Shown piece after piece: positions 10,854 through 52,487 of a stretch of 64,000 bases of DNA. Source of the DNA: Pomacea canaliculata (lineage: Eukaryota; Mollusca; Gastropoda; Architaenioglossa; Ampullariidae). Location: positions 25,954,695-26,018,694 of the forward strand of contig NC_037599.1 of the NCBI RefSeq assembly GCF_003073045.1, in the 5' to 3' direction. A program made the translations under genes and the position numbers. The notes beneath the pieces are model-generated. The model saw only the letters and a list, made by a program, of their open reading frames with translations, made no database searches and was not told the DNA's origin. Numbering within the stretch: position 1 is the first letter of the stretch; the number at the start of each line of letters is the position of its first letter.

Positions 10854-12920
<2,067 letters not shown>

Positions 12921-13867: not shown

Positions 13868-14661
13868 GTAAGCTGACATCACTTCTTTATATTTCTGGTG
13901 TGACCCTAGAAAGTGTTACCTTGACGATAATTTTTGTTGTTTGATGGCGAAGTTGGCTCCTTACTAAGTCGCAGTTCTGACTTGTCCTTTGGACATAACA
14001 CAACGGCTTAGGCCCTTTAGGAATGTAAATGTTTGATCCTACTGATAGGTATGATGATATGTAGTAGCATAATCATCATCATGATCATTGTTTAAGAGTG
14101 GTCAGACAATAATATTACAATCAAGTATTCCCAATTTTCTCTGCAATGTTCCAAAATGAGAGCTTTGGATGTTTTCAGCACAGTTCACCTTGTGTCTACT
14201 TCTTCTATCGCTTGCAGTTGTTTATTGTAAGGTTTTCAAAGAGAGCACTCTGTGTAATTCTCTCATACCTGCACAATAGTGACTTATCTTTGTAAATAAG
14301 AAGTATATTTTTGTGCATCGTATCTCCCTGGACTTTATGTATGATTGCAGGACAGTACAAATATTGCATTCGCAAGTTTCTTGTATGAGCATCCTCTGGG
14401 AGCTATATGCCGACAGGTTGTCTGGTATCTATTCTACATAAATACGTAAACCTCAGAATCGTACACTAGACATGGAAGTAAGCTTTCCAAAGAAGTACAT
14501 GTAATCAGATTTTCAAATATTAAACAATTAGCTGTAACAAGTAATGGAGTTCATTTATCATCATCTTTTTATTCCAGACCGGTGCGTTTGTCTATAAAAC
14601 ATGACAAAACTGACAAAGTGTTTTCAGATATAGGTTGCCGCACCTCGCCTCGAAAAAAAGG

Positions 14662-15619
14662 ATGGCGGAAGCTGGAGCCTCTTCTGGCAACTATGTACCA
14701 ACCGGTATCGAAGACGATGACCCTGATCTAAATCAGACACGAGGTCAAGGTGAAATCCGGGTTCTTATCATTGGTGCTTCCGGCAGTGGGAAAAGTACAG
14801 TAGGTAATATTCTCCTCGGCAAGGACCACTTTCAGGTGTCAAGTGCTGTCACACTCGATAGTCAAACAAAAGAAGCGAGGATTGGAGAGAGCACGAGATA
14901 TGGCAGGCATCTAAAGGTGAGCACTTTTTAATGACATTATTCATTAAAACAGACAGAAGACACGATTTTAAGCTAGACATAATTTTGCAACAAACACACC
15001 ACATCTATTATATGGACGCCATTAACACTACTTCTTTAACAGCATTAACATCCATAGATATGGTGCCTCAAAAATACTACCAGTATGAGCATTAATTCTT
15101 CTAAATAAAATAAGTTATTGTTCTCTTGTCTTTGTAACTTAACCACAATTGAACACGACTTAAGCACCTTTAGAAACTATAACTAAAATCTCATCGATAA
15201 GCTTTCCTCGTAATGTGTCATTAATACACTTGTTGCATGTAAAGGTACTAGATACATTGGCAGTCATGAGTTCAAAGACGATGCCACGGCGAGGAAAGAA
15301 ATCAGAAAATGGGTGAAGATGTGTCCTGATCCTCACCTCATCCTTCTGACCATCCGCTGTGTACCACTCGATCTTGGAGCTGACGTGTTGAGGTTCAGAA
15401 GGTTCAAACATCTCTGCGAGGCAGAATTTACTCGCAGACGTCTGGCAATGCTCTTCACATGTGAAGACAAGCTGAAAGAGAGTGTAGAAGATTTCAAAAA
15501 GCGAACACACTCAGGTTTGGAAGAGATTTGGAGAGAAGCCGATACACGACATTTGTTTATTGGCGCCAGGGAACAAGAAACACTCCTTCACCAGGTCTTC
15601 CAGATTTGTGATGATCTGA
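14662..15619 (+). CDS. GIMAP G domain 1 of the tandem gene (frameshifted in G3)
   Basis: Exon 14662-14916 starts at an ATG following the acceptor at 14627. It encodes an acidic N-terminus and a good P-loop, GASGSGKST, ending at a GTGAGC donor in phase 0. Exon 15245-15619 follows an AAAG acceptor. It begins V-L-D-T in the expected frame, but the next recognisable residues (GSHEFKDDATARKEIRKW) lie in another frame, as if one base were missing around 15257-15262. The exon length is also one base short of the phase its paralogue has. The downstream frame is well kept (LILLTIRCVPL, a C-terminal helix region). Either it is a recent null mutation, an assembly indel, or an unusual acceptor (CATGAG, exon from 15271) restores the frame while skipping G3. 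Confidence 0.6.
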
Positions 15620-18600
15620 GTAGGTTACTTTTTCGCCTTAAAGCAAACACTTCATCAAACCAGCTCATGTGAATATTATTTATTCTCGTGCACAAAATTC
15701 AAGTAAATGTCCTTGCCTAAAACATATATTTTAAAATGATTATAAATTTAAGCATACATTTAATATTTATTGACGATAGAAACATGCAAGTCACATCATA
15801 AACCATAAAGTTTGCACAGAATAAACAAAAGACCCTTATTACAGGTATTATTTATATTAAAGGTAGTAATTTTCTTTATTTGTAAGAAGACTCGCTTCTC
15901 ATATTCTCCGGGATCCTTTGTCTTTCCTTTCGCTTTTTTTATCTGTGATAATCTTCTATATAGCCTGTTCTATAACAGTGTCAACAGAAAACTCAAAAGG
16001 GGATTGTATGGAGTGCGAAGAGGAGTCTGGATCCTGTGACGGATTCTTGGACTGCCGCACTTTGAAGCTAACAAGCAAGAAGAGACTTTCATGCAAAACG
16101 GCCATACGAAGAATGTACTTAGTATGTTTCCTCTTTTATTTTGCATAGTGTTTGAATGTGTTGATTTTGACCTGAATGAAGAAATTGTATATCTGGAACT
16201 AGAGAATCCACACTAAGAGCATTATGGGTGTACCGTTGGATGAGCATACAATGGTGTGACCGAGGACTTTCCTCAGATGGACACACCCAAAACATAATGT
16301 CTTCAGATAAGGGCTAAACTCTTTCAAGATCAACATCTTTCCAAACACCCTGATGAGGTTCTTAAGTTTCCTTTGGGTTTGTCGAGTCGCGACTAGGGTA
16401 AAGCAGATAATGTAATTTGTTGCAGAACGCGAACTGAAAGTGTTAATAATTGGCAAGACTGGAAATGGAAAAAGCAGTGTAGGTAACTCCATCTTGAACA
16501 CAGACGCCTTTCCCGTTACACGAGGTTTGGTATCATCTGCACAAACGGACCTGGAAAGGACAGCTCAGAAATTTGGAGTGACCATCAAAGTACGAATGTC
16601 TCCATCATGGCGTTTAAATATTTAATCAGTATACAAAGAACCAGAAAAAATAGACCATAGACGAAAATTATGACGGTAATGTTAAAATTATATGGCATTA
16701 TTTTTCATAATTTAAGAAAGTTTTTCAACTTTTAATAATTTACCACAATCTTTAAAAACATTAGCGTATTTCTAATGTGTGGATAAATAAAATTTAAAAA
16801 AAGTGGAGTGGATTTAATGTGTGCTTTAGGATAATATTCATATGCAATAGGCATGGTGCTGTCGAAAGCTTTTAACTATTGTATTTAAATAAATTATTAC
16901 ATATAATTAAATAACCTTTTTTAAATACATTGTTTTTGTAGGTAACTGATACACCTGACGTTAGCAATCTGCGTCTAGACAAAGAGGAAGCTAATGAAAG
17001 AATCATCAAGTGGAAGTCACATGACCCTGATGTCATACTGCTGGCCATTCGGTGTGACCTTCGCTACACCGCGGAGGAATACCAGATCTACGAGCAGATA
17101 AAGAAAGTATTAGGAGAAGAATACGTCAAGCCGAGGCTAACAGTGGCCTTCACCTTTGGTGATCGACAAGATACGGACATAGAAGAGGAACTAAAAATAG
17201 TCTGCAAAGAGCTGAAGGCGGTTCTGGAAGATGCTGAAGGACGCTACATCGTGTTCAGCAGTCAGGATAAAGATGAGGACAAAAAGCGGCAGGTTATTCA
17301 TCTCATGAACCTTGTGCCCAACTTCCGTACGTGTTTTTTTTTGTTTGTTTGTTTGTTTTTACTTTGAATGCTAGTTTTGATAATTACTGATTTTCTCTCA
17401 ATTTTTTAAAGCTATTTAATACAAGATGAAAACTCTGCTTGTCATTTAATATGGAAGTACAGTCGGACCTCGATAAGTCGACCTTCCCTACGTCGAAAAC
17501 CTCCCTGTATCGAATTAATTGTTAGTTCCCGGCCAAATACCTGCGTCTATTACGCAATTTTCCCTAACTCGAAAACTCCGTAAGTCGGTTTTTTTTCGGG
17601 TCCCTTTGAGTTCGACTTATCGAGATCCGACTGACTAATAATCATTTTCAAAAACGTCATTCATCTTTATAACATACAAAAATCAGACCTAATTCTTTCA
17701 TTAAAGAATATTGTAGTTTAATGTTGAGAGCATCCTTTTATTAGGTAGGATATATCCAGGGTATAGCTCTTATAGCCACAGAGGTTGTAAATTGTACATG
17801 TTTCTAAAATTTTATGCTTAAAAAATGAGATACAAGTCTACAAAATTCATTCCCATTAACCAAGCTTGACTCTCTATATATTTTATGTTTTTGTCTCTGT
17901 TTTGTCACACATTATTTTCCAAAAATATTCATTACGAAGTCCTTTGTCTGCTTATACAGAGTTTCCTAGTGACTTGAAGAGAATCCTTCTCCTTGGATCC
18001 ACAGCAAGCGGGAAAATCTCAGGAGGCAATGCACTTGTACGAAGAAAAGTCTTCAAGGCAGGCACAACAATGCCAAAGAAAACCAGCTACATAACTGAAG
18101 TCGATGGAATGTGGTTACAGGTAAAATTATTTAATCTTCGGCCTCATCCTGACACCTTGCCTAGATGTTCACTCTCGTAAAACTCTGCCCCTAGATGACA
18201 GCAAACAACGCAAAAAAATATGTGAATGTGTCAAACATTTTTCATGTAGATAATTTCTACCTAGTATGAAATCTTCTATAAATACATGATTATAAGATAA
18301 CCAGGATCTACTTCAGGGCTCCGGTGCATAGGCGGTCTTAACTTTTCGTCTTAAGATGCCTTGCTTAACTCGCTTTTCGTCTTGGCTAAGTTCGCTGTCT
18401 CAATCCTGTTGCATGAGCGATCTCAGCCCCTTGCTTAGCTGAGAAACGGGTCAGGTCAGCGCGGCGGTCGAGGTCAGTGATATAAATAAATTCGTCCGGG
18501 AGCGGCCTTGCCAACCGTATATTCCACCAATGAAAACTGCGCTACAGCGATGGTGCTGAGCCGCGAAATTCGTCTGCGCACCATGGTTGAAACGAAGGAG

Positions 18601-21600
18601 AGATGTGCGACAGCGAAATATTAGTCTTAATCGAGGAGGTTACCAGGGAGAAGAAGAGGCTTTACCAGAAAAAAGAAAAAGATGAAATAAAGAAATGAGC
18701 GGATTTAAGATCTTCCATAATTTCATTTCTCAGTCGTCAAAAACATCCACCCACGGACAGGGTGCCACCAGAAACACCCGTGATGAATGGAGAAAGTGAT
18801 AAATATTTTGGTAGATGATTTCAGAGAACTGATGGAAGGCACAAACATCGAAGGTTAGTCATTTTGTTTACCTGTGTAGATTTTTTTTTACGTCTGTGTC
18901 ATCCGCAGAAAAAGCTCTAGATACCGAGAGAATGCAAATGCAAAGCCTATAGTCAGCACACAACAGCCGGTTTAGAAAATAAATATTTCCATCCGAAATA
19001 CATTTATTTAAAATAACTAGATACATTTCTGATTTAGTTTTTGTTACAGGTGGTGAATCATTTACGCTGGTTCCTCCAGAAGTCTTTCATGATAGGGGAG
19101 AGTAATAAAATAATAATATTGACATATATAGGAGGTGCAATATAGAACACTCCAGTTCAATCTTCTAATTCAACAATGGAAATGCTTTTGCTAGAAGTAT
19201 ATCTGCAGATTTATTATTTTCATGCATAACAACAACAATGAATTGAACATTTCAGATGATGATGTTTTCAAATGGGAAATTTTAAAAATGTACTTTATAG
19301 AACAGATATTCCTGATGGTATTTTTGAACAAAACATGAAATATTAAGGAAAAGCCACCAAGGTTTTTGTCCTTTAGAGAGGGCAGCTACATATAATTTTC
19401 CACAGCTGGCTTAAAATTATAAATTGTTTAATTCAAGTGCCAAACACAGACTATGACATAATTTGGGAGATGTACACAGCAGGTTTGTCTTTACATCCAC
19501 AGTCAGTTTGGACATTTAACCAGTTTTAACTACAAGTCTAATACATGTTACAGTACCAGTGTTCTACAGTTTAGATTCCAGTAGACACTCAGCTTCTGAA
19601 TGACAGATTTGCAGTGTCTACATTCTTAAACAGTTGCAAATAAGATGTTATGAAGTTCTGAAATGGCTACACCTGAGTCCAGTGAAAAGTGCTAAATATT
19701 AACTCTAAAGAGAGAAACATGTCCTTCACAATCCTACTAGCAGCATGTAGTAAATATCAACATAACTGCTTTTTACTAGTTACTTGGCATCACAAAGAAT
19801 AACAAGCAACACAATAATCTATTTATATAGAAACCTTACACAGAAGAGTAATTCAAACAATACCTTTACATAACCTAATGCAATGGTAAGTACTCAGTGC
19901 TCCCAAGTAGAAGTGTCATGAATCAATTGTTCTAAGAAACATTTCTTTCGTGCAGCATCAAGACCACACAGAGTTCCACACAGCAATATTCAAAGCCATC
20001 AAAGCGGCTTAGACCTAGACAGCTGCACATTTCTGAAAAAAATCTTTTTGACTGTCAGATAAAAACACCAGGTGATGTACCAAGCAGCCAGAATTCCATC
20101 CGTCAACTGGGTCACCCGAAGAAAGCAAAATACCTGATGATACAAAAGAATGCACAACAAAGATAAGAGAACAAAAAACTTTGTAGCTCCTGGACAGTGA
20201 ACTTGAATCTTGTTAAAAAAGAATTGCAATTCATGGAAATCAAAATAAATCTGGCACAGGCTGAGGTAACAAATACTAGACAGAAAAACAGATGGAAATG
20301 GATTGGTAATGCCAGCTGCTGAAAGTGTTCACCAACTGATTGGGGTGGATGTTGCTATTCAGCCAAAGTCAAATTGAATAATAATGTGACCATTCAGTTA
20401 GAAATTATGACAGCACAATGGAACACATGATGATTTTTGCTGCTTTGGCAGGGATGTATCTGAAGTCACACAATATATTCTGAAGCATATGATATTAAAG
20501 GGGAGGAGTTCTTTTCCTTGTCTGCATTTAAAAAAAAGGGAAACTAAGCCAGTCCCTCAGCGGGTAGCCACTGTCTCCCATATTCATCCCATGTCAATGC
20601 CGTCAGCCACTACAACTTGCATTGTGCTTGTAGCGTAAAATTGTAATGCCACCATCACCTGCAAAAGACATAGGAAATATTATTGACCTCAATGATTTAT
20701 ATATTTTAGTATTCACATCTAAACAAAACTGTCCATTTTAGTTAAAAAGGACGATGTGAACATTAACCTATTATGATTATCTATCTCTTGAGCCACATGT
20801 TTACAACTTGAGACATACTGCAATGAACTGCCTGTCAAATTGATAAACATGTATTAAATCAAACTATATAAGAGATTCTGTGTGCTCTGCTACATTATTC
20901 TGTGTTGTTTTACTTAAATACAATGCCATCAATTTTTTAATAATGTTTACATACTCTAAAACAACACTTGGAGCACAGTGGATGGGCCAGAATTGTGCGT
21001 CTGCTCATATGACCCAAGTATAGCAAACTGAATTTTTTTGGATTATTGCTGTCACCAGAGTGAAAGTAGAAGATTTTCATTACTTTTATTGCAAAATTCA
21101 AGTTTTTTCCTTTCCAAATATATATAAGTTTTGTGGTCTCTTGTTTACCTGAGAGCAGCAATAATAACAACAAACATCACCCACTGTCGTCAACACCGTC
21201 TTAAGTTATACGCCATTGTTTTGTTATGTGATTATATTTTGAAGTCATGCTAACATTATTAAATATTTTTAACGTAATGCTGTCAATTACACTTATTAAT
21301 TATATATTTATATAGTGGTGGTGACTATAGTCTTACCTGCAGCAAAGGCGGAGTAGAGCCTTTTCGTTGAAAATGATGGTCGAAATCATTTTCCACTGTT
21401 ATGTTCGCTCGACGGAATCGAAAACAATGAAACAAATCGACGTCATACATTTCAAATGGATTTGATGGATCGCTGAAGTAGTGAAAAATCTGTATCTGTC
21501 AATGGTATACACAGGGCAACTCAGTAAACAACACGATCAAGCGCCACTGTTACTACGAAAGCCGCCGTACGGTCATGCGTAAGCAGCGTGTCGCGGCTAA

Positions 21601-22806
21601 GCAAGGAGTTAAGCCTGGGGGGGACCAGTCTCAAATTTTAAGACTAAGACCGCTTGCTTAGCGAGTTGAGACCGCCCATGCACCGCGCTTAGCAGGCGTC
21701 TTAGGTTAAGACAGCGTGCTTGGCTTAACTGCGGTCTTAACTCGAGTTAAGACCGCCTATGCACCGGAGCCCAGATGACTAAGGTTCTATCTTTTAAACC
21801 AACCCGTGTTTGTCGTCTTAATTAAATAAAACTAAATTAAATAAAAATCAACACAATACATGGAAAAGGAAAAATATCAATTGTCGTTGCATAATCAAAA
21901 ATAAATAAATAAATAAAAATTAAGAAAAAAAAAACAAACCAAATAGGGTTATCGCCATAAGTGTTTCTTGTTTGCTTATGTTAAAAATATCAAAATCTCA
22001 TTTACTTACAGTACCTCACATTTATGGATCATGATCATGTCATAAATTTCCTTCAGTCGTTGTGTCCTCCACCTACCCTACCCCCGATGCCCGCATATTA
22101 GTTTCGTAATAAGAATATCATCAAAAAGTCTAAGAAAATACAACAATATATCAAACGTTTAATTAAGCCTTTACTAACATATTTATGTTGAATACTGGTC
22201 TTTAAAGCAGACTTTTAAAAAAGCGGTCTACGGGAGTTAATTTTAGGTTTGATGTTAGCTTAGTTACTTCCCTTTATTTCTCTTAGCGGACGTTTTCGTT
22301 AGTCTTTATACCTTTTCAAATGTTAAATGTGCATATTTTCCACTTTGATGAAGATCATCAATACACCGGAGTTATCCCGTCTCAACACCCGTGACTTTAA
22401 AAAGCAGATGAGCTCGCTGCTGGAGGCCTCGGAGCCTGGTCCACATGTCATTCTGGTGTTTGTCAGGGAATCACAGGTGGCGTCTGAAGATTTCTCCTTT
22501 TTTGAGGGACTTGAAGCGTACTTCGGAGAGCGCCTTGAGCAACACTTGATAGTTGTTACTGTTACTGTTACAGACGAGAAGAGCAGCGCAGGAGATGACA
22601 GTCTGAGTAAACTTGACAAAATAAAATGCAGGGAAAAACTCTGCTTCGTAGACACCCAGACATCAAATGACAAGACCGAAATATTGACGACTAACATTAA
22701 AAATCTTCTTCAGGCTACACGTGGAAACTTCTTACCATTAAAGCGCATTCCTTGTGACCATCATGACACGGATACTCCTACTTCTCATAAAAAAGTCAAA
22801 TACTGA
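14662..22806 (+). CDS. Tandem GIMAP gene: exons for three AIG1-type G domains in a row
   Basis: Coding exons: 14662-14916, 15245-15619, 16426-16589, 16942-17326, 17960-18120 and 22354-22806 (stop TGA). They form three repeats of [P-loop exon, G3/G4 exon]. Each P-loop exon after the first starts with two bases completing a split codon, and each internal G3/G4 exon ends one base into a codon, so units join in phase 1. 17326/17960 joins cleanly. 15619/16426 joins if the donor GTAGGT at 15620 is used; otherwise domain 1 would end at a stop at 15670-15672 and be a separate gene. Domain 1 has a 1-nt frameshift, and domain 3 has degenerate motifs. No membrane segment or CaaX is visible; the tail is hydrophilic (ends SHKKVKY). 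Alternatives are two adjacent genes, or a partly decayed array. Confidence 0.65.
15918..16148 (+). other. Small open frame: hydrophobic N-terminus plus Cys-rich segment (76 codons)
   Basis: Lies in the intron between G domains 1 and 2 of the tandem GIMAP gene. The frame begins MSFLSLFLSVIIFYIACS, which looks like a signal peptide. Next come a short polar region with six cysteines (GDCMEC, GSCDG, LDCRT, LSCKT) and a hydrophobic C-terminus (YLVCFLFYFA). No family is recognised. It could be a small secreted or GPI-like peptide, a cassette exon, or chance in AT-rich intron sequence. Confidence 0.25.
16426..17326 (+). CDS. GIMAP G domain 2 of the tandem gene (intact)
   Basis: Exon 16426-16589 follows a TTGTTGCAG acceptor and encodes RELKVLIIGKTGNGKSSVGN (intact P-loop), ending in phase 0 before GTACGA. 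Exon 16942-17326 begins V-T-D-T-P-D (G3), then the conserved box around DVILLAIRCDLRYTAEEYQ, FTFGDRQDTDIEEEL at the G4 position, and EGRYIVFSS; it ends in phase 1 before GTACGT. Sequence identity with the membrane-anchored paralogues (10854-12920 and 50019-52487) is obvious by eye, so this unit belongs to the DTPD/FTFGDR subfamily. It is the only fully intact G domain of the three. Confidence 0.85.
17460..17633. mobile_element. Short palindromic MITE in the tandem GIMAP intron
   Basis: The left end CAGTCGGACCTCGATAAGTC is, with one mismatch, the reverse complement of the right end, about 17611-17633. It is 174 bp long, noncoding and foldable into a hairpin. TA precedes the left end, as in Tc1/mariner-pogo type elements, but no TA follows the right end, so the class is only suggested. 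Confidence 0.65.
17960..22806 (+). CDS. GIMAP G domain 3 of the tandem gene (degenerate, split by transposon-bearing intron)
   Basis: Exon 17960-18120 follows a TTATACAG acceptor and its first two bases complete the codon left by 17326. It encodes SDLKRILLLGSTASGKISGG: the P-loop has Ile where Ser/Thr normally follows Lys. Exon 22354-22806 (phase 0) begins I-I-N-T-P-E, a changed G3 (usual D-T-P-G/D). It continues with a recognisable box (GPHVILVFVRESQVASEDFS) and ends in TGA. The two exons lie 4.2 kb apart because a Harbinger element occupies the intron. It probably binds GTP poorly or not at all, a pseudo-GTPase module; this is inference from motif loss. Confidence 0.65.
18603..18698 (+). 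pseudogene. Myb/SANT-like protein fragment of the Harbinger element
   Basis: A 31-codon frame starting at an ATG reads SEILVLIEEVTREKKRLYQKK, resembling the first helix of the Myb/SANT-like protein that accompanies Harbinger transposases. It ends in TGA and later sequence is not open. Assigned by context as much as by sequence. Confidence 0.4.
20380..21500 (-). pseudogene. Harbinger transposase, broken
   Basis: Minus-strand exon ending at 21337 (GTAAGA donor) encodes FSDPSNPFEMYDVDLFHC and continues to GSTPPLLQ, the N-terminal region of Harbinger/HARBI1-type transposases. After an intron, sequence from 20658 downward reads VMVALQFYATSTMQVVVADG. It then jumps to GDSGYPLRDWL (DDE-domain motif around 20560) and RYIPAKAAKIIMC (near 20430). 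A large part of the catalytic domain is deleted and stops and frame changes interrupt it, so it is a fossil. Confidence 0.75.
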
Positions 22807-26113: not shown

Positions 26114-29100
26114 ATGCTTCGACTGGTTGTCATCGTTGCAGCTTCAGTTATCCTGTTCTTTTCTGGTTTTGGTGAGTGTAATTTTTTTTTACAAGTACCA
26201 GCAGTTCTGTAATACATTTAAGTTGTGAATCTTAGGGTGAGTTCGAAACACTTTATATGATGTTACACTTCATTATCTCAGACAAAGGAGGAAGTTCATA
26301 AATAAGTATTTCTAATGTAAGAGATGGATTTAAAATAGTGTCAACTGTAAATGTTGGTTACTTGTTACATGAATATACTCAACGTGCGGGAGACAGAGAC
26401 TTTTTGGCACAGATGACTTTGTTGTCCATAGACGACTCCATATAATCCAACCTTTTGACTAGGCCGAGCAACTATCTTTCCTATAGGGTCAACAACAACT
26501 AGTTTAGTAGTTACTATGTTTTCAATCCGAATTTCTTAAAATTTAACGCACATTTTTACAAAAAAAATCATAAAGAATAACTAAGTTGATTTTGCAAACT
26601 TCCCCCATACAAATTTTGATCTGTCTATTAGGCACCAATTTCGAAAAGAAATTTGAGTCTACTCACAACATTGACGGAGTTATAAGCTTTTCACAATGTT
26701 TGTTTTGGTAGCCATTTCGGATCGTTTTCGTGGCTACCGAAAATTTTTTAATGAAATCACTTCCAGGCGAAAACACTTTCCTGCAAAGCCGTCATATATA
26801 TATATGTGTGTGTGTTAGGGGGTGTGGGGGGCATATGTACTACTTACTGCTTTATAAATATGTAATTGATTGTCGAATAACAGACGCAGCTAGGGTAACA
26901 GAACCCTGTGACTACGGATGGAGTCCTTTCAACTCTGCTTGTTACCATATTTTCATGGAAAGGATGAACTGGTCAGCAGCTCGTGCAAGTTGTCAGGAAA
27001 AGGACGCTGATCTATTGTCTTTGAAACCTAGTGATAATGTGAAAATGGTAAGTATTGTCTGGACGGCAATTTTAAAACAAACTGTTTTACTAATTTACCC
27101 AATTGGATGTACTGCGGTGTAGATAACATAAATTAATGTGTTTGTTTGGGTAGGTGTTTTAATTTTTTTAGTTTTAACATAGTTAAGGCTGGTAACAGTT
27201 AACTGTGATAGTAAAATAATATACACACAAAGTTGAATCCGTATTTTTCATTATAAATCGTACTGTGTTTTGGGTGAGACTAGAGTATTTAAATTCATAT
27301 TTACCTCAAACTGCTGCCATACATAGATTTTATGCATATTTTGTTTATTAATCTCGACTATATTTTTCACTTTTTCTTTATCAGTTATACATAAATCAAC
27401 AGACAGAAAGCGTGATGAAACAGATGACCTGGTGGGTTGCCTTTGAAATGAAGTCACTTGAAGGCACCTTGGTATCTGTTCCTGTCAACTCTTCTTCCAC
27501 AGGCCATATCTCGTAAGAAGCCAGTTTACTCAGTCCATAGGCAAGCGCTGAAATTGTATTTCAAAGTGTAACTCATGTACACATATTAGGAGGGTAGCCT
27601 AGGCCCTTCTTATAGAACCTGTCATTCCTGTGAAAGATGCTTTAACCTTTATGAACTTAGGCTTCCGTGACTCACGTGGGTTACAGGGTGGACGTGAATC
27701 GCACCACAGATCGGAATGTATCGCAAAGAATATCACAGTTAACGACTGATTTATTTAATTTTGAGCACTCCTTCAGTGCAGCTGCGACATATATATATAT
27801 ACGTGAAAGTTATTGTTCTAAAAACATACACAAAGATATCTTAAGATTTAAACTACTTTGAACACTTCCTCGGATTTCTAATAAAAGTTATGTAAAAACT
27901 TAAAAAATACTTTTAAAATTTAATATACATTAATATTTAACAGCAACTACCGTTGAGGGTAGCACATGGACACGGCAGCCATTTACGCCTGTTTCTGTTT
28001 TGTTGTTTTGGGTTGTGTGTTTGGTTTTTTTTTTGGCGTTTTTTATTTTTAATTTTTTAATTTTTTTGCAATAGTGGGAAAGTCCTGTACAGGACAGTCA
28101 GTCTTTGTAGAGGGTGGCTCCCAAGTACGTCAAGCTGTTGACATCTTGGAGCTGTACTCTGTTCATGAAGATCTATTCTTTGTCGTTGCCAATAGGAATT
28201 ATTTTATTCTTATCATTGCTGGTTTCCATTCCATATGTTCAAACTATCAGTCTGTTACTAAGATCTTGGAGTTCTTTTATATTACCTGCTAGCAAGTTGA
28301 TGTCGTTGAAGTGTAGGCTACAAATTGGTATTTCATCGATAACAATAAAAGTGGGATGGTTGTAGAGGGTTTCACACTTGATCTTCTCCAAGATGTTTAA
28401 CATCACACATGAGAGAGGACACCCTTGACGTACGTCTACCGTCGTGTGGAAGTAAACACCTATTCGGTCGTCAAGCAGTACTGCTCTCGTTGAGTGATTA
28501 TGTAGTGCTTCAATAACTTGGATGAGGCCTTCTTCGATATGAAATGTTTGTATCGCATGCCGTTGCAGGTTCTGTCGATAGCCTTTCAAATACCATGAAG
28601 CTGCGACAGAAGTCCTGTTGTTCTATCAGGATGAGACAGATGAAGATCTAGTCAGCCATGCTCCTTCATGATCTTTTCTTCTGCTGCTAGGGGTTCCTCA
28701 TCAGGGGTGCTGGTGGGGCTCAGCGTTTATTTTCATGGGTAGCTGATAAGACTTATAGTTCTGTAGTTTCAAAGTTTGACACTTTATTGTTTCCTTTTCT
28801 GTGAAGGAATATGACTAATAACTGAGCTCTTTTTGATCCTGAATTTTAAAGGGGAAGTAGATAAGTTTATGGACCAATCCATTTGGTGAGTTCTAAGTGG
28901 CCGCCCTCAATTTCTTGTGAGGTTGTAACTTTTTGGTTAAGGTGAGGATGGCTCAGCGCAAGAACTCGGACTCTTGAGTCCCCAGTCCTTGATTTCGCAA
29001 AGCCCTTTTTTAACCCTCCGTTCCTGCCCATTGATGAAAAGCGTCTGTGCTGACCTTGGTGCTGCAGTCAACAATGGTTTCCTTTTTCTGGAACTGCTTT

Positions 29101-50018: not shown

Positions 50019-52487
50019 ATGGCGGATATGCGCCGTGAAACCAGCGTGTCTCACCGGACAGCCCCTGACCATGACCCGCTATCGCCATTCAGGCGTGACT
50101 ACAGTCACGTGTCCAACCAACTGAGAGCCAGTGATTACTCATGTGAGTCTCCAGTGCACGGTAATGAGTGAGGCCAAACTGGCGAAGTGCTAGCTTGTAC
50201 CTGCATGTGTAGCTACTCGAGTTGGTTTGATAGAATAGCTTACTGGGGAAAGTAGAAGAGGGACATCTGATCCCCAATATCTGTCTGTATGAACTAAAGT
50301 ATTTATATAAATAATAACAAGCTTTGCTGCACCACTCATGGAATCGCACAGTGGGAGGGCTCCAGTCACGTGTGTTACGTTCACGAGTATTGCCGGTGGT
50401 GTGGTGAGTCCCTTGGTGTGGTTGTCGTAGTCGGACGTGTCACTCACGTGTTTATGGTGTTGCTGGTGTCAACAAAGCTGTCAGTTGTACAAAAACATCT
50501 TCATACATATACACACCGTACACAATACTTATGTGGACAATACAAGTCTGCTGTCTGATGTTTGTACATCGACAGTTTATTCTAACTTCTGCCCGCTGTT
50601 AACAGACACGTGACCGTTGATTAGAATTCTTTCCAGTTGTCGCCATCCTAGAATCACAGTCTTTTACATAATCTGATTTGTTTACCATGATAAAGGAGTA
50701 AAGGATGAGACAAACAATCCTCAGCAAACGCTATGATGACCTTTGTCTTAGAATTTTTAATTAGTTTATTTAATATTGAAACAAAATATGAGCTACCATC
50801 TGAGGGTGTAGGTGAGAGGGAGAAACAGAGACAGGTAGGGTGAAGAGATTGTGATCGGGTGGATGGGAGTTGGGTAGTTAGGTGTTGGAGTGTGTCTAAG
50901 GTGTGTGCTCGAATGTCATTGTGTTGCTCTCTTTGAATTTTAATTTTTCTTTCCTTCATACAGGGCCCAGGTATGCACGTTACATAACAGCAGCCTCTCA
51001 CGTGTTTATCGTTGTAGGAAGGAGCGGCAGTGGAAAAAGCAGGATAGGAAACACTCTTCTCGGAAGACATGCCTTCGTAATCGGAGATGGTTCTTATCCA
51101 ATAACAAGGAAGTCTCAGATAAAATCAACAATAAGAAGACACACAATATCAACGGTGCGATGTTGCATAGTATTCTCATATTTATTCTCAAGCAACCGCA
51201 GATTCTTGCAAGAAATAATAGTTTTCTGCCTTACACACACACAAACAAACAAACAGATACAATTAAATAGACAGAGTAATGACTTTCTTATCTCGCTGCC
51301 ATGCCTCCAACACAAATGTCAGGTGACATAGCAAGTATACGATCCATCAGGGACAGGAGGGTCTGGTACCTTAGAGGAAATACGTTAGCCACCAAGTGTG
51401 GCGAGAAGTGGGGCATGTGAGATAATTGTATGTGGGATAATTAGTCGAGATATATTTGTTTAATTTTGAGGACTTCTATTTATACTGTTCCACGTGAATA
51501 GATGGAGAAAAGACAGGATCGGCTTTTATGAATGTAGGACGAGAGAGTGAGATACAATGAGAGAGAGAGGACCAGTCATCGTAACTTTATTTACAGGCTG
51601 ATTATAAATCTTTCAGGATATTTCTTTCTACTCTGTTTCACTAATAACGTATCTGCAATAAAATCGCGTCTTCCTGACTCGCAGTTCGATTTGGCAGACT
51701 GTCATAAAAATTTTTTATTCGTGCAAAGGTCTTGGATACTCCAGACATCTTCAGCCTGAGCTGCGAACCTGAAAATCAGATAACAGAAATTAAGAGGTGG
51801 AAGACACTGACATCACATGAAAAGCCGATCATCCTGTTGGCCGTGCGCCTCGATATGGAGTACATGATCGATGACTACGCCATCTACAAAGAGTTCAAGC
51901 GGCTCTGGGCAGACGACTCCGACATCGCAAGTCATCTGGTTGTGGCCTTCACCTTTGGAGACCGGATACACAGAGACTTTGTGAGGGAGTTGAAGGACAT
52001 AAGCGTGGAGCTCAAGAGTGTCTTGAAGGATGCCCACAATCGCTACGTGATTTTTCAAGTAGATACAGGTGTAGGTATTTATGTTTTACCTTGGTTTTCA
52101 TTTGTTGTAGGATAATGAGTGTGCGTGTGTGTGTTGTCATGCTGAGTTTGTGACTTATCAGATCTAGGGGCAGTGGGAGATCCTTAATTCTTCTTTCCTT
52201 TTGCTCCTCAGGAGAAAGACATCCACGAAGAGTTCGACCAGTTCTCTAGCGTCATCAACGAATGGCAAACACAGTACGGCTTCGTTCACATCCAGAAAGT
52301 CACGACCTCTGTGATATTCATCATAGCCCTAATAGCTGTGGTCTGCATTGTCATGGAAGTCTTGTACAATGGTATGGAGCTGATTGTGGCAGGTGGACTG
52401 CTGTGTCTCTTCATGGCTGTGCTGTGGTATTGGATGAGGCAACTGGGCAGGCTACCACCACCCAAAATAATCATGAGCCACATATAG
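50019..52487 (+). CDS. GIMAP/AIG1-type GTPase with two C-terminal membrane segments, complete (4 exons)
   Basis: Exons 50019-50142 (ATG, N-terminus MADMRRETSVSHR, phase 1 end), 50964-51154 (P-loop GRSGSGKSR, phase 0 end), 51729-52058 (330 nt) and 52212-52487 (stop TAG) join in frame, giving about 306 residues. The P-loop has Arg where Ser/Thr usually follows GKS. G3 is VLDTPD; the conserved box is around EKPIILLAVRLDMEYMIDDY; G4 position reads FTFGDRIH. The last exon has EKDIHEEFDQF, then hydrophobic runs VIFIIALIAVVCIVM and LIVAGGLLCLFMAVLWYW separated by about 9 residues, consistent with a membrane hairpin, and a basic tail. The exon-2 donor (ACG/GTGCGA) is weak. Exon plan and subfamily motifs match the minus-strand gene at 10854-12920. 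It sits between two convergent CTLD genes. Confidence 0.88.

Follow-up and report, generated by a model that had tools for sequence, protein, structure and literature searches.

Multi-G-domain GIMAP-type genes in an array of Pomacea canaliculata, with a three-domain copy that was most likely silenced recently

Judged from the sequence, six exons of the 64,000-nucleotide window analysed here (the whole stretch C10:25954695-26018694) are real and constitute one copy of a GIMAP-type gene with three G domains, which we refer to as W. We are largely confident that W belongs to an array family of multi-G-domain GIMAP genes composed of two-exon cassettes joined by phase-1 introns, that it has the arrangement type 1-type 2-type 3, and that it was most likely silenced recently. 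According to its predicted splicing, the three-domain protein is not encoded by W as assembled; at the level of the family, the reading of the cassettes as one protein is well supported by predicted gene models. Positions without a contig name refer to the window.

Exons and domains of the window copy

Exon 1a (14662-14916) provides the start codon and the P-loop GASGSGKS of a type-1 G domain and ends in phase 0 at the donor GTGAGC; exon 1b (15245-15619, 375 nt; donor GTAGGT, phase 1) contributes the remainder of this domain. The type-2 domain is divided between exon 2a (16426-16589; acceptor phase 1, donor phase 0) with the P-loop GKTGNGKS and exon 2b (16942-17326; donor GTACGT, phase 1) with the G3 motif DTPD, the G4-like motif FTFGD and the G5 region. 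Exon 3a (17960-18120; acceptor phase 1, donor phase 0) carries the degenerate P-loop GSTASGKI of a type-3 domain, whose likewise degenerate second part, with NTPE instead of DTPG and the stop codon, was assigned to exon 3b (22354-22806) on the basis of sequence and an AIG1 match. All six exons lie on the plus strand, and the G motifs bear their customary names. G1 and G3 are both present in the type-2 domain of W; the type-1 domain has kept G1 and lost G3.

The division of these exons into three cassettes, each consisting of a P-loop exon and a G3/G4 exon, was proposed in a first-pass annotation and is borne out by GT and AG at all five introns and by matches to the AIG1 profile (PF04548), on which AIG1/GIMAP family membership was judged, in five of the six exon translations taken singly. 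Three of them (exon 2a 33.0, 2b 59.2 and 3b 32.5 bits) exceed the Pfam cut-off of 27 bits, and exons 1a (26.1 bits) and 3a (24.2 bits) fall below it; the translation of 15256-15669, the exon 1b stretch searched alone, gave no match to the profile. Exon 1a is 95% identical over 59 amino acids to its counterpart in the sister copy W2 described below. Correctly foreseen were also the codons completed between the cassettes, CAG at 17326/17960 and, by use of the GTAGGT donor, AAA at 15619/16426. The more general statement that the exon phases are compatible with one protein holds for these two junctions and fails at 14916/15245, where 7 nt are missing.

The intron before exon 3b accommodates a transposon-like insertion of 3.46 kb (18313-21775) with 31-bp terminal inverted repeats, the terminal arms of which are 97% complementary. 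It is absent from the locus of W2 (L032), and a further related locus (L033) presents an empty site, so the insertion arrived in W. An overlap of 3 nt at this empty site suggests a 3-bp target duplication. On the 3' side of the GIMAP gene lies an open frame (26712-27122) that presumably resembles a C-type lectin domain.

Related copies, cassette order and domain types in the array

The AIG1 profile search covered the 24-contig, 440,159,624-base Pomacea canaliculata assembly and yielded at least 155 exon-level matches in the genome, most of those listed being located on contigs C3, C10 and C2. On C10 the matches span about 25.81 to 26.52 Mb and form an array of ~0.7 Mb (contig end 26,524,634). 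The copies treated here are paralogues from a single assembly, not independent species, and full gene models are limited to W, W2 and X. W2, found ~100 kb from W on the minus strand (about C10:26085472-26080936), possesses the same six exons, all with GT-AG, which add up to 1800 nt including the stop codon and an open frame of 599 aa; its predicted protein contains three AIG1 stretches (228 bits). X (C10:25814-25819 kb) consists of eight exons, again all with GT-AG, with 2349 nt and an open frame of 782 aa, and its predicted protein contains four AIG1 stretches (300 bits). The presence of tandem G domains in one gene, as claimed in the first-pass annotation, is supported by W2 and X, both of them predictions, and does not apply to W as assembled.

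The four cassettes of X recur in X2 (L031), which lacks the stop codon of X, and in X3 (L030), which has a frame-damaged type-1 b-exon (1b); exon 1a was not found in the examined stretches of X3 or L035. Y is composed of one type-1 and three type-2 cassettes, and Z, L036 and L035 of type 1 and type 2. In W3 (L033) type 1 is absent and types 2 and 3 are damaged, and a type-1 exon at C10:26387924 has a P-loop match at C10:26385021 and no type-2 b-exon match beside it. W3, X3, X2, this type-1 exon and the last two cassettes of Y, which are near-identical and show no clear acceptor, have to be counted against the main reading.

The last two type-2 cassettes of Y (C10:25918574-25922366) are near-identical including the 75-nt flanks read and were either duplicated in tandem very recently or doubled in the assembly. 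The same two possibilities, a recent duplication or an assembly duplicate, apply to a near-identical pair of single-domain GIMAPs at 51008-52055 and C10:26024969-26026020, ~19 kb apart. The three-domain gene and a divergent single-domain GIMAP (11418-12616, minus strand) recur as a block at three places, namely at about 9.1-23.0 kb of the window, in L032 and in L033. The stretch of L033 equivalent to 14350-16102, which includes the type-1 cassette, is missing.

The cassettes follow a fixed order with type 1 first, one to three type 2 next and type 3, where present, last. On C10 and with hand-compiled labels, a type-1 b-exon is followed by a same-strand type-2 b-exon in 11 of 12 cases and a type-3 b-exon is preceded by type 2 in 6 of 9; 20,000 label shuffles gave means of 1.05 and 0.90, respectively, and none reached the actual values. 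This test used 66 rows, pooled every other copy under one label ('S'), dropped one duplicate row and left out weak matches as well as the type-2 fragment at C10:25828837 adjoining the type-3 fragment at C10:25830397, the inclusion of which would raise the second count to 7 of 9; some labels, namely the type-2 labels of the copies at C10:25899210, 26127608, 26357363, 26456611 and 26500009, were not based on the first tree described below. A repetition with 43 rows, 39 of them labelled by the best-matching query in agreement with the tree groups and four by tree placement, gave 8 of 9 and 6 of 8, values attained by 0 and 3 of 20,000 shuffles, respectively; the type-2 fragment of the R gene is not among these rows. 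All of these counts concern copies that share ancestry and are not independent events.

The splice phases recur as well. The donor position of exon 1b is found as A/GT in phase 1 in nine (W, W2, X, X2, Y, Z, R, L035 and L036) of ten type-1 b-exons compared, of twelve in total, the exception being X3, which is frame-damaged there. Type-2 cassettes have a phase-1 acceptor and a phase-1 donor in W, W2, X, X2, X3, Y (first cassette), Z, L035 and L036 and are in this sense symmetric. The acceptors of inner P-loop exons in general are in phase 1, with the exception of the last two of Y. In 11 of 15 inner P-loop exons no in-frame ATG occurs between the exon and the upstream stop, as also in exon 2a of W, and those exons therefore need a preceding exon. 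The first-pass annotation had ascribed the same phase-1 boundary to the P-loop exons of nearby single-domain genes. This was not confirmed: in 8 of the 12 the open stretch that holds the P-loop also contains an in-frame ATG ahead of it, and the phase-1 AG seen in 10 of the 12 within the 90 nt scanned upstream means little.

Trees of the individual domains were in both cases midpoint-rooted and omitted five b-exon matches that lacked a P-loop partner exon; the first, with 44 domains, also omitted the two damaged domains of W3 and contained as human rows fragments of GIMAP2, 4 and 5 only. Types 1 (7 rows), 2 (12) and 3 (7) each form one clade in the 44-domain tree (100/100, 99/97 and 100/100) and again in a 47-domain tree without human rows (96/100, 99/99 and 100/100), which implies that the domain types and their order are older than the gene duplications. 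The fusion, too, predates the duplications that gave the present genes. Separately from human GIMAP2/4/5, one group unites types 1 and 2 with local single-domain copies (97/91 in the 44-domain tree; the group has 83/83 in the 47-domain tree), and the long branch of type 3 falls outside this group with an unsure placement. The suggested origin by local duplication is accordingly supported for types 1 and 2 and does not extend to type 3. In the type-3 domain of W and W2, G1 reads GSTASGKI and G3 NTPE, compared to GPPKSGKS and DTPG in X. The frame of this domain has been kept open in W and W2 despite the non-canonical G1 and G3 residues, which makes a non-catalytic role plausible.

Three separate single-domain GIMAP genes in tandem, with phases compatible by coincidence, would agree with the frequency of single-domain cassettes in the array and with the open tail that results from reading through the 15619 donor up to the stop codon at 15670-15672, a transcript end which the first-pass annotation had considered as the contrary case. 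The length of this tail, however, is not conserved (17, 2, 3, 3, 31 and 14 codons in W, W2, X, X2, Y and Z, respectively), and a single-domain gene terminating at the 15670 stop is for this reason not favoured. Moreover, neither exon 2a nor exon 3a of W offers an in-frame ATG before the upstream stop, only 310, 587 and 597 nt, by the exon coordinates, separate the cassettes of X, and diverged copies show the same order and phases, so that separate genes appear very improbable. Scarcely any probability remains for an ancestor of the three-domain architecture shared with vertebrate GIMAP8. Three AIG1 domains per chain are common to both and the GIMAP8 protein is similar in size to the snail three-domain protein, but types 1 and 2 lie with the snail single-domain copies in the 44-domain tree, which does not include GIMAP8, the snail genes differ among themselves in having one to three type-2 cassettes, and type 3 is not clearly placed.

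Frame break in the first domain of W

In W, 7 nt present in W2 are missing from within the G3 codons of the first domain (exon 1b 375 versus 382 nt), and because of this loss the 14916/15245 junction is out of frame. After the natural splice a stop is encountered 23 codons into exon 1b, and the spliced W reads VLDT before the frame is lost at the place where W2 reads VLDTPDIGS; the open-looking frame of exon 1b in W enters from the intron. W as an intact three-domain gene was discarded, as its spliced translation leaves the frame in exon 1b, and so was a gap of about 1 nt, as the comparison with W2 gives 7 nt. The gap is the sole net frame-breaking difference between W and W2 across the six exons. 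With such a frame-breaking lesion relative to an open relative, as expected of a pseudogene, W is probably a young pseudogene or a null allele, provided that splicing does not shift to a weak in-frame acceptor at 15271.

Between W and W2, dS is 0.074 and dN 0.032, corresponding to a dN/dS of 0.44 (bootstrap 0.26-0.71) over 587 codons. Their exons differ in length by 12, 7, 0, 0, 0 and 12 nt, the value for exon 3b being made up of gaps of 1, 7 and 6 nt which give a multiple of three only as a sum; in introns 1-4, which diverge by 5.6%, none of 17 gaps is a multiple of three. Relative to X, dS is at least 1.29 or beyond estimation and dN 0.31-0.59 across the six exons; among the X copies, dN/dS is 0.48-0.57 overall and ranges from 0.17 to 1.21 for single exons. 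The upper end of this range and the gaps in exon 3b are further points counted against the main reading. If W had evolved neutrally since its split from W2, ~2.3 nonsense changes would be expected, a rough figure for which a nonsense fraction of 4.5% was assumed. None is observed, which suggests that the frame loss in W is probably recent, with polymorphism and assembly error as the other possibilities.

W might nevertheless be functional if the acceptor at 15271 (GAG/TTC) replaced that at 15245, which would give a three-domain protein with a first domain devoid of G3. The putative exon (15271-15619, plus strand, 349 nt) is in frame with both neighbours, the five other exons of W are open and every splice dinucleotide is present; however, this acceptor, with its poor pyrimidine tract, would compete with the upstream acceptor common to W2, and an intact type-1 G3 (DTPD) is kept in the b-exons of W2, X, X2, Y, Z, R, L035 and L036. 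A functional W of this kind is quite improbable. It is also conceivable, albeit unlikely, that most chromosomes carry an open three-domain gene at this locus and that the 7 missing nt reflect a mistake in assembly or polishing or a null allele still segregating. Such an explanation would suit the lack of any second net frame-breaking change relative to W2 in the six exons, and heterozygous contigs were filtered out of the published P. canaliculata assembly according to the accessible part of its description, so that alleles and copies may be mixed (PMC6129957). Against it, W and W2 look like separate loci on account of the divergence of introns 1-4, their opposite orientation and the transposon-like insertion in W only. 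A loss of 7 nt is, moreover, atypical of long-read errors. W is probably dead, and annotators are cautioned not to take it for a working gene.

Relation to known multi-domain GIMAPs

GIMAP8 contains three AIG1 G domains in one polypeptide, as stated in the accessible parts of two reports (PMC4201521, PMC8201404). Three AIG1 domains would likewise lie in one open frame in the predicted W2, and not in W as assembled. The snail genes differ from GIMAP8 in that two exons share the coding of every G domain, in that the number of domains ranges from two to four, and in the occurrence of three distinct domain types, types 1 and 2 being placed beside local genes with a single domain. Snail GIMAP genes with more than one AIG1 domain, often in tandem arrays, are known: they make up 8 of 91 in B. 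glabrata, and a Pomacea subgroup of second, C-terminal AIG1 domains clusters with bivalve sequences, as far as the accessible text of that study goes (PMC7053062); this subgroup may correspond to type 3 or type 2. The same text uses coiled coils to separate GIMAP from other AIG proteins, gives forms of G1 and G3, and describes the AIG1 domains of B. glabrata as mostly contained in one exon, in contrast to the two exons of each Pomacea cassette. A few GIMAP genes with two AIG1 domains are mentioned for B. pfeifferi in the available part of another report (PMC10075465), and several AIG1 domains are ascribed to lancelet and acorn worm in an accessible excerpt, possibly counted per genome (PMC3723955). 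Dual-AIG1 genes have already been reported in Pomacea and Biomphalaria with two domains, whereas the predicted genes of the family of W have three and four (compared with the accessible text of PMC7053062). In the literature searched, which left most subscription journals outside, no three-, four- or tandem-AIG1-domain snail genes were found, and no use of the term exon shuffling was found in the main text of the GIMAP paper examined for it.

On balance, we consider it rather probable that the snail genes form a multi-domain family independent of GIMAP8, with two to four domains of three types, duplication of cassettes in mid-gene and one subfamily closed by a pseudo-GTPase. In the proposed scheme, one G domain would correspond to a two-exon cassette in which a phase-0 intron separates the P-loop exon from the G3-G5 exon, and the phase-1 introns joining the cassettes would permit their gain or loss without a change of frame. 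The start codon would belong to a leading type-1 cassette, one to three type-2 cassettes would follow and a type-3 cassette would close the gene in two subfamilies, W and X. In W, the loss of 7 nt from the G3 codons of domain 1 would leave a truncated protein, as assembled. In its open sister W2, types 1 and 2 are expected to bind GTP and might pair via their G domains tethered in one chain, with the degenerate type-3 domain as a presumably non-catalytic partner. In PDB sequence comparisons, the type-2 domain of W2 matches GIMAP5 (5.6e-13), GIMAP2 (1e-12) and GIMAP7 (1.1e-10), and type 3 matches GIMAP4 (1.4e-9). The GTPase activity of GIMAPs is thought to be controlled by G-domain dimerization, according to the accessible part of a published account (PMC8201404). 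Dimers of human GIMAP2 and GIMAP7 are formed from separate chains, whereas the snail domains would, if they dimerize, be tethered.

The array would thereby offer a second, apparently independent case of multi-G-domain proteins, in which the value of tethering is testable by comparison, and its simple splice-phase rule shows how multi-G-domain proteins can grow.
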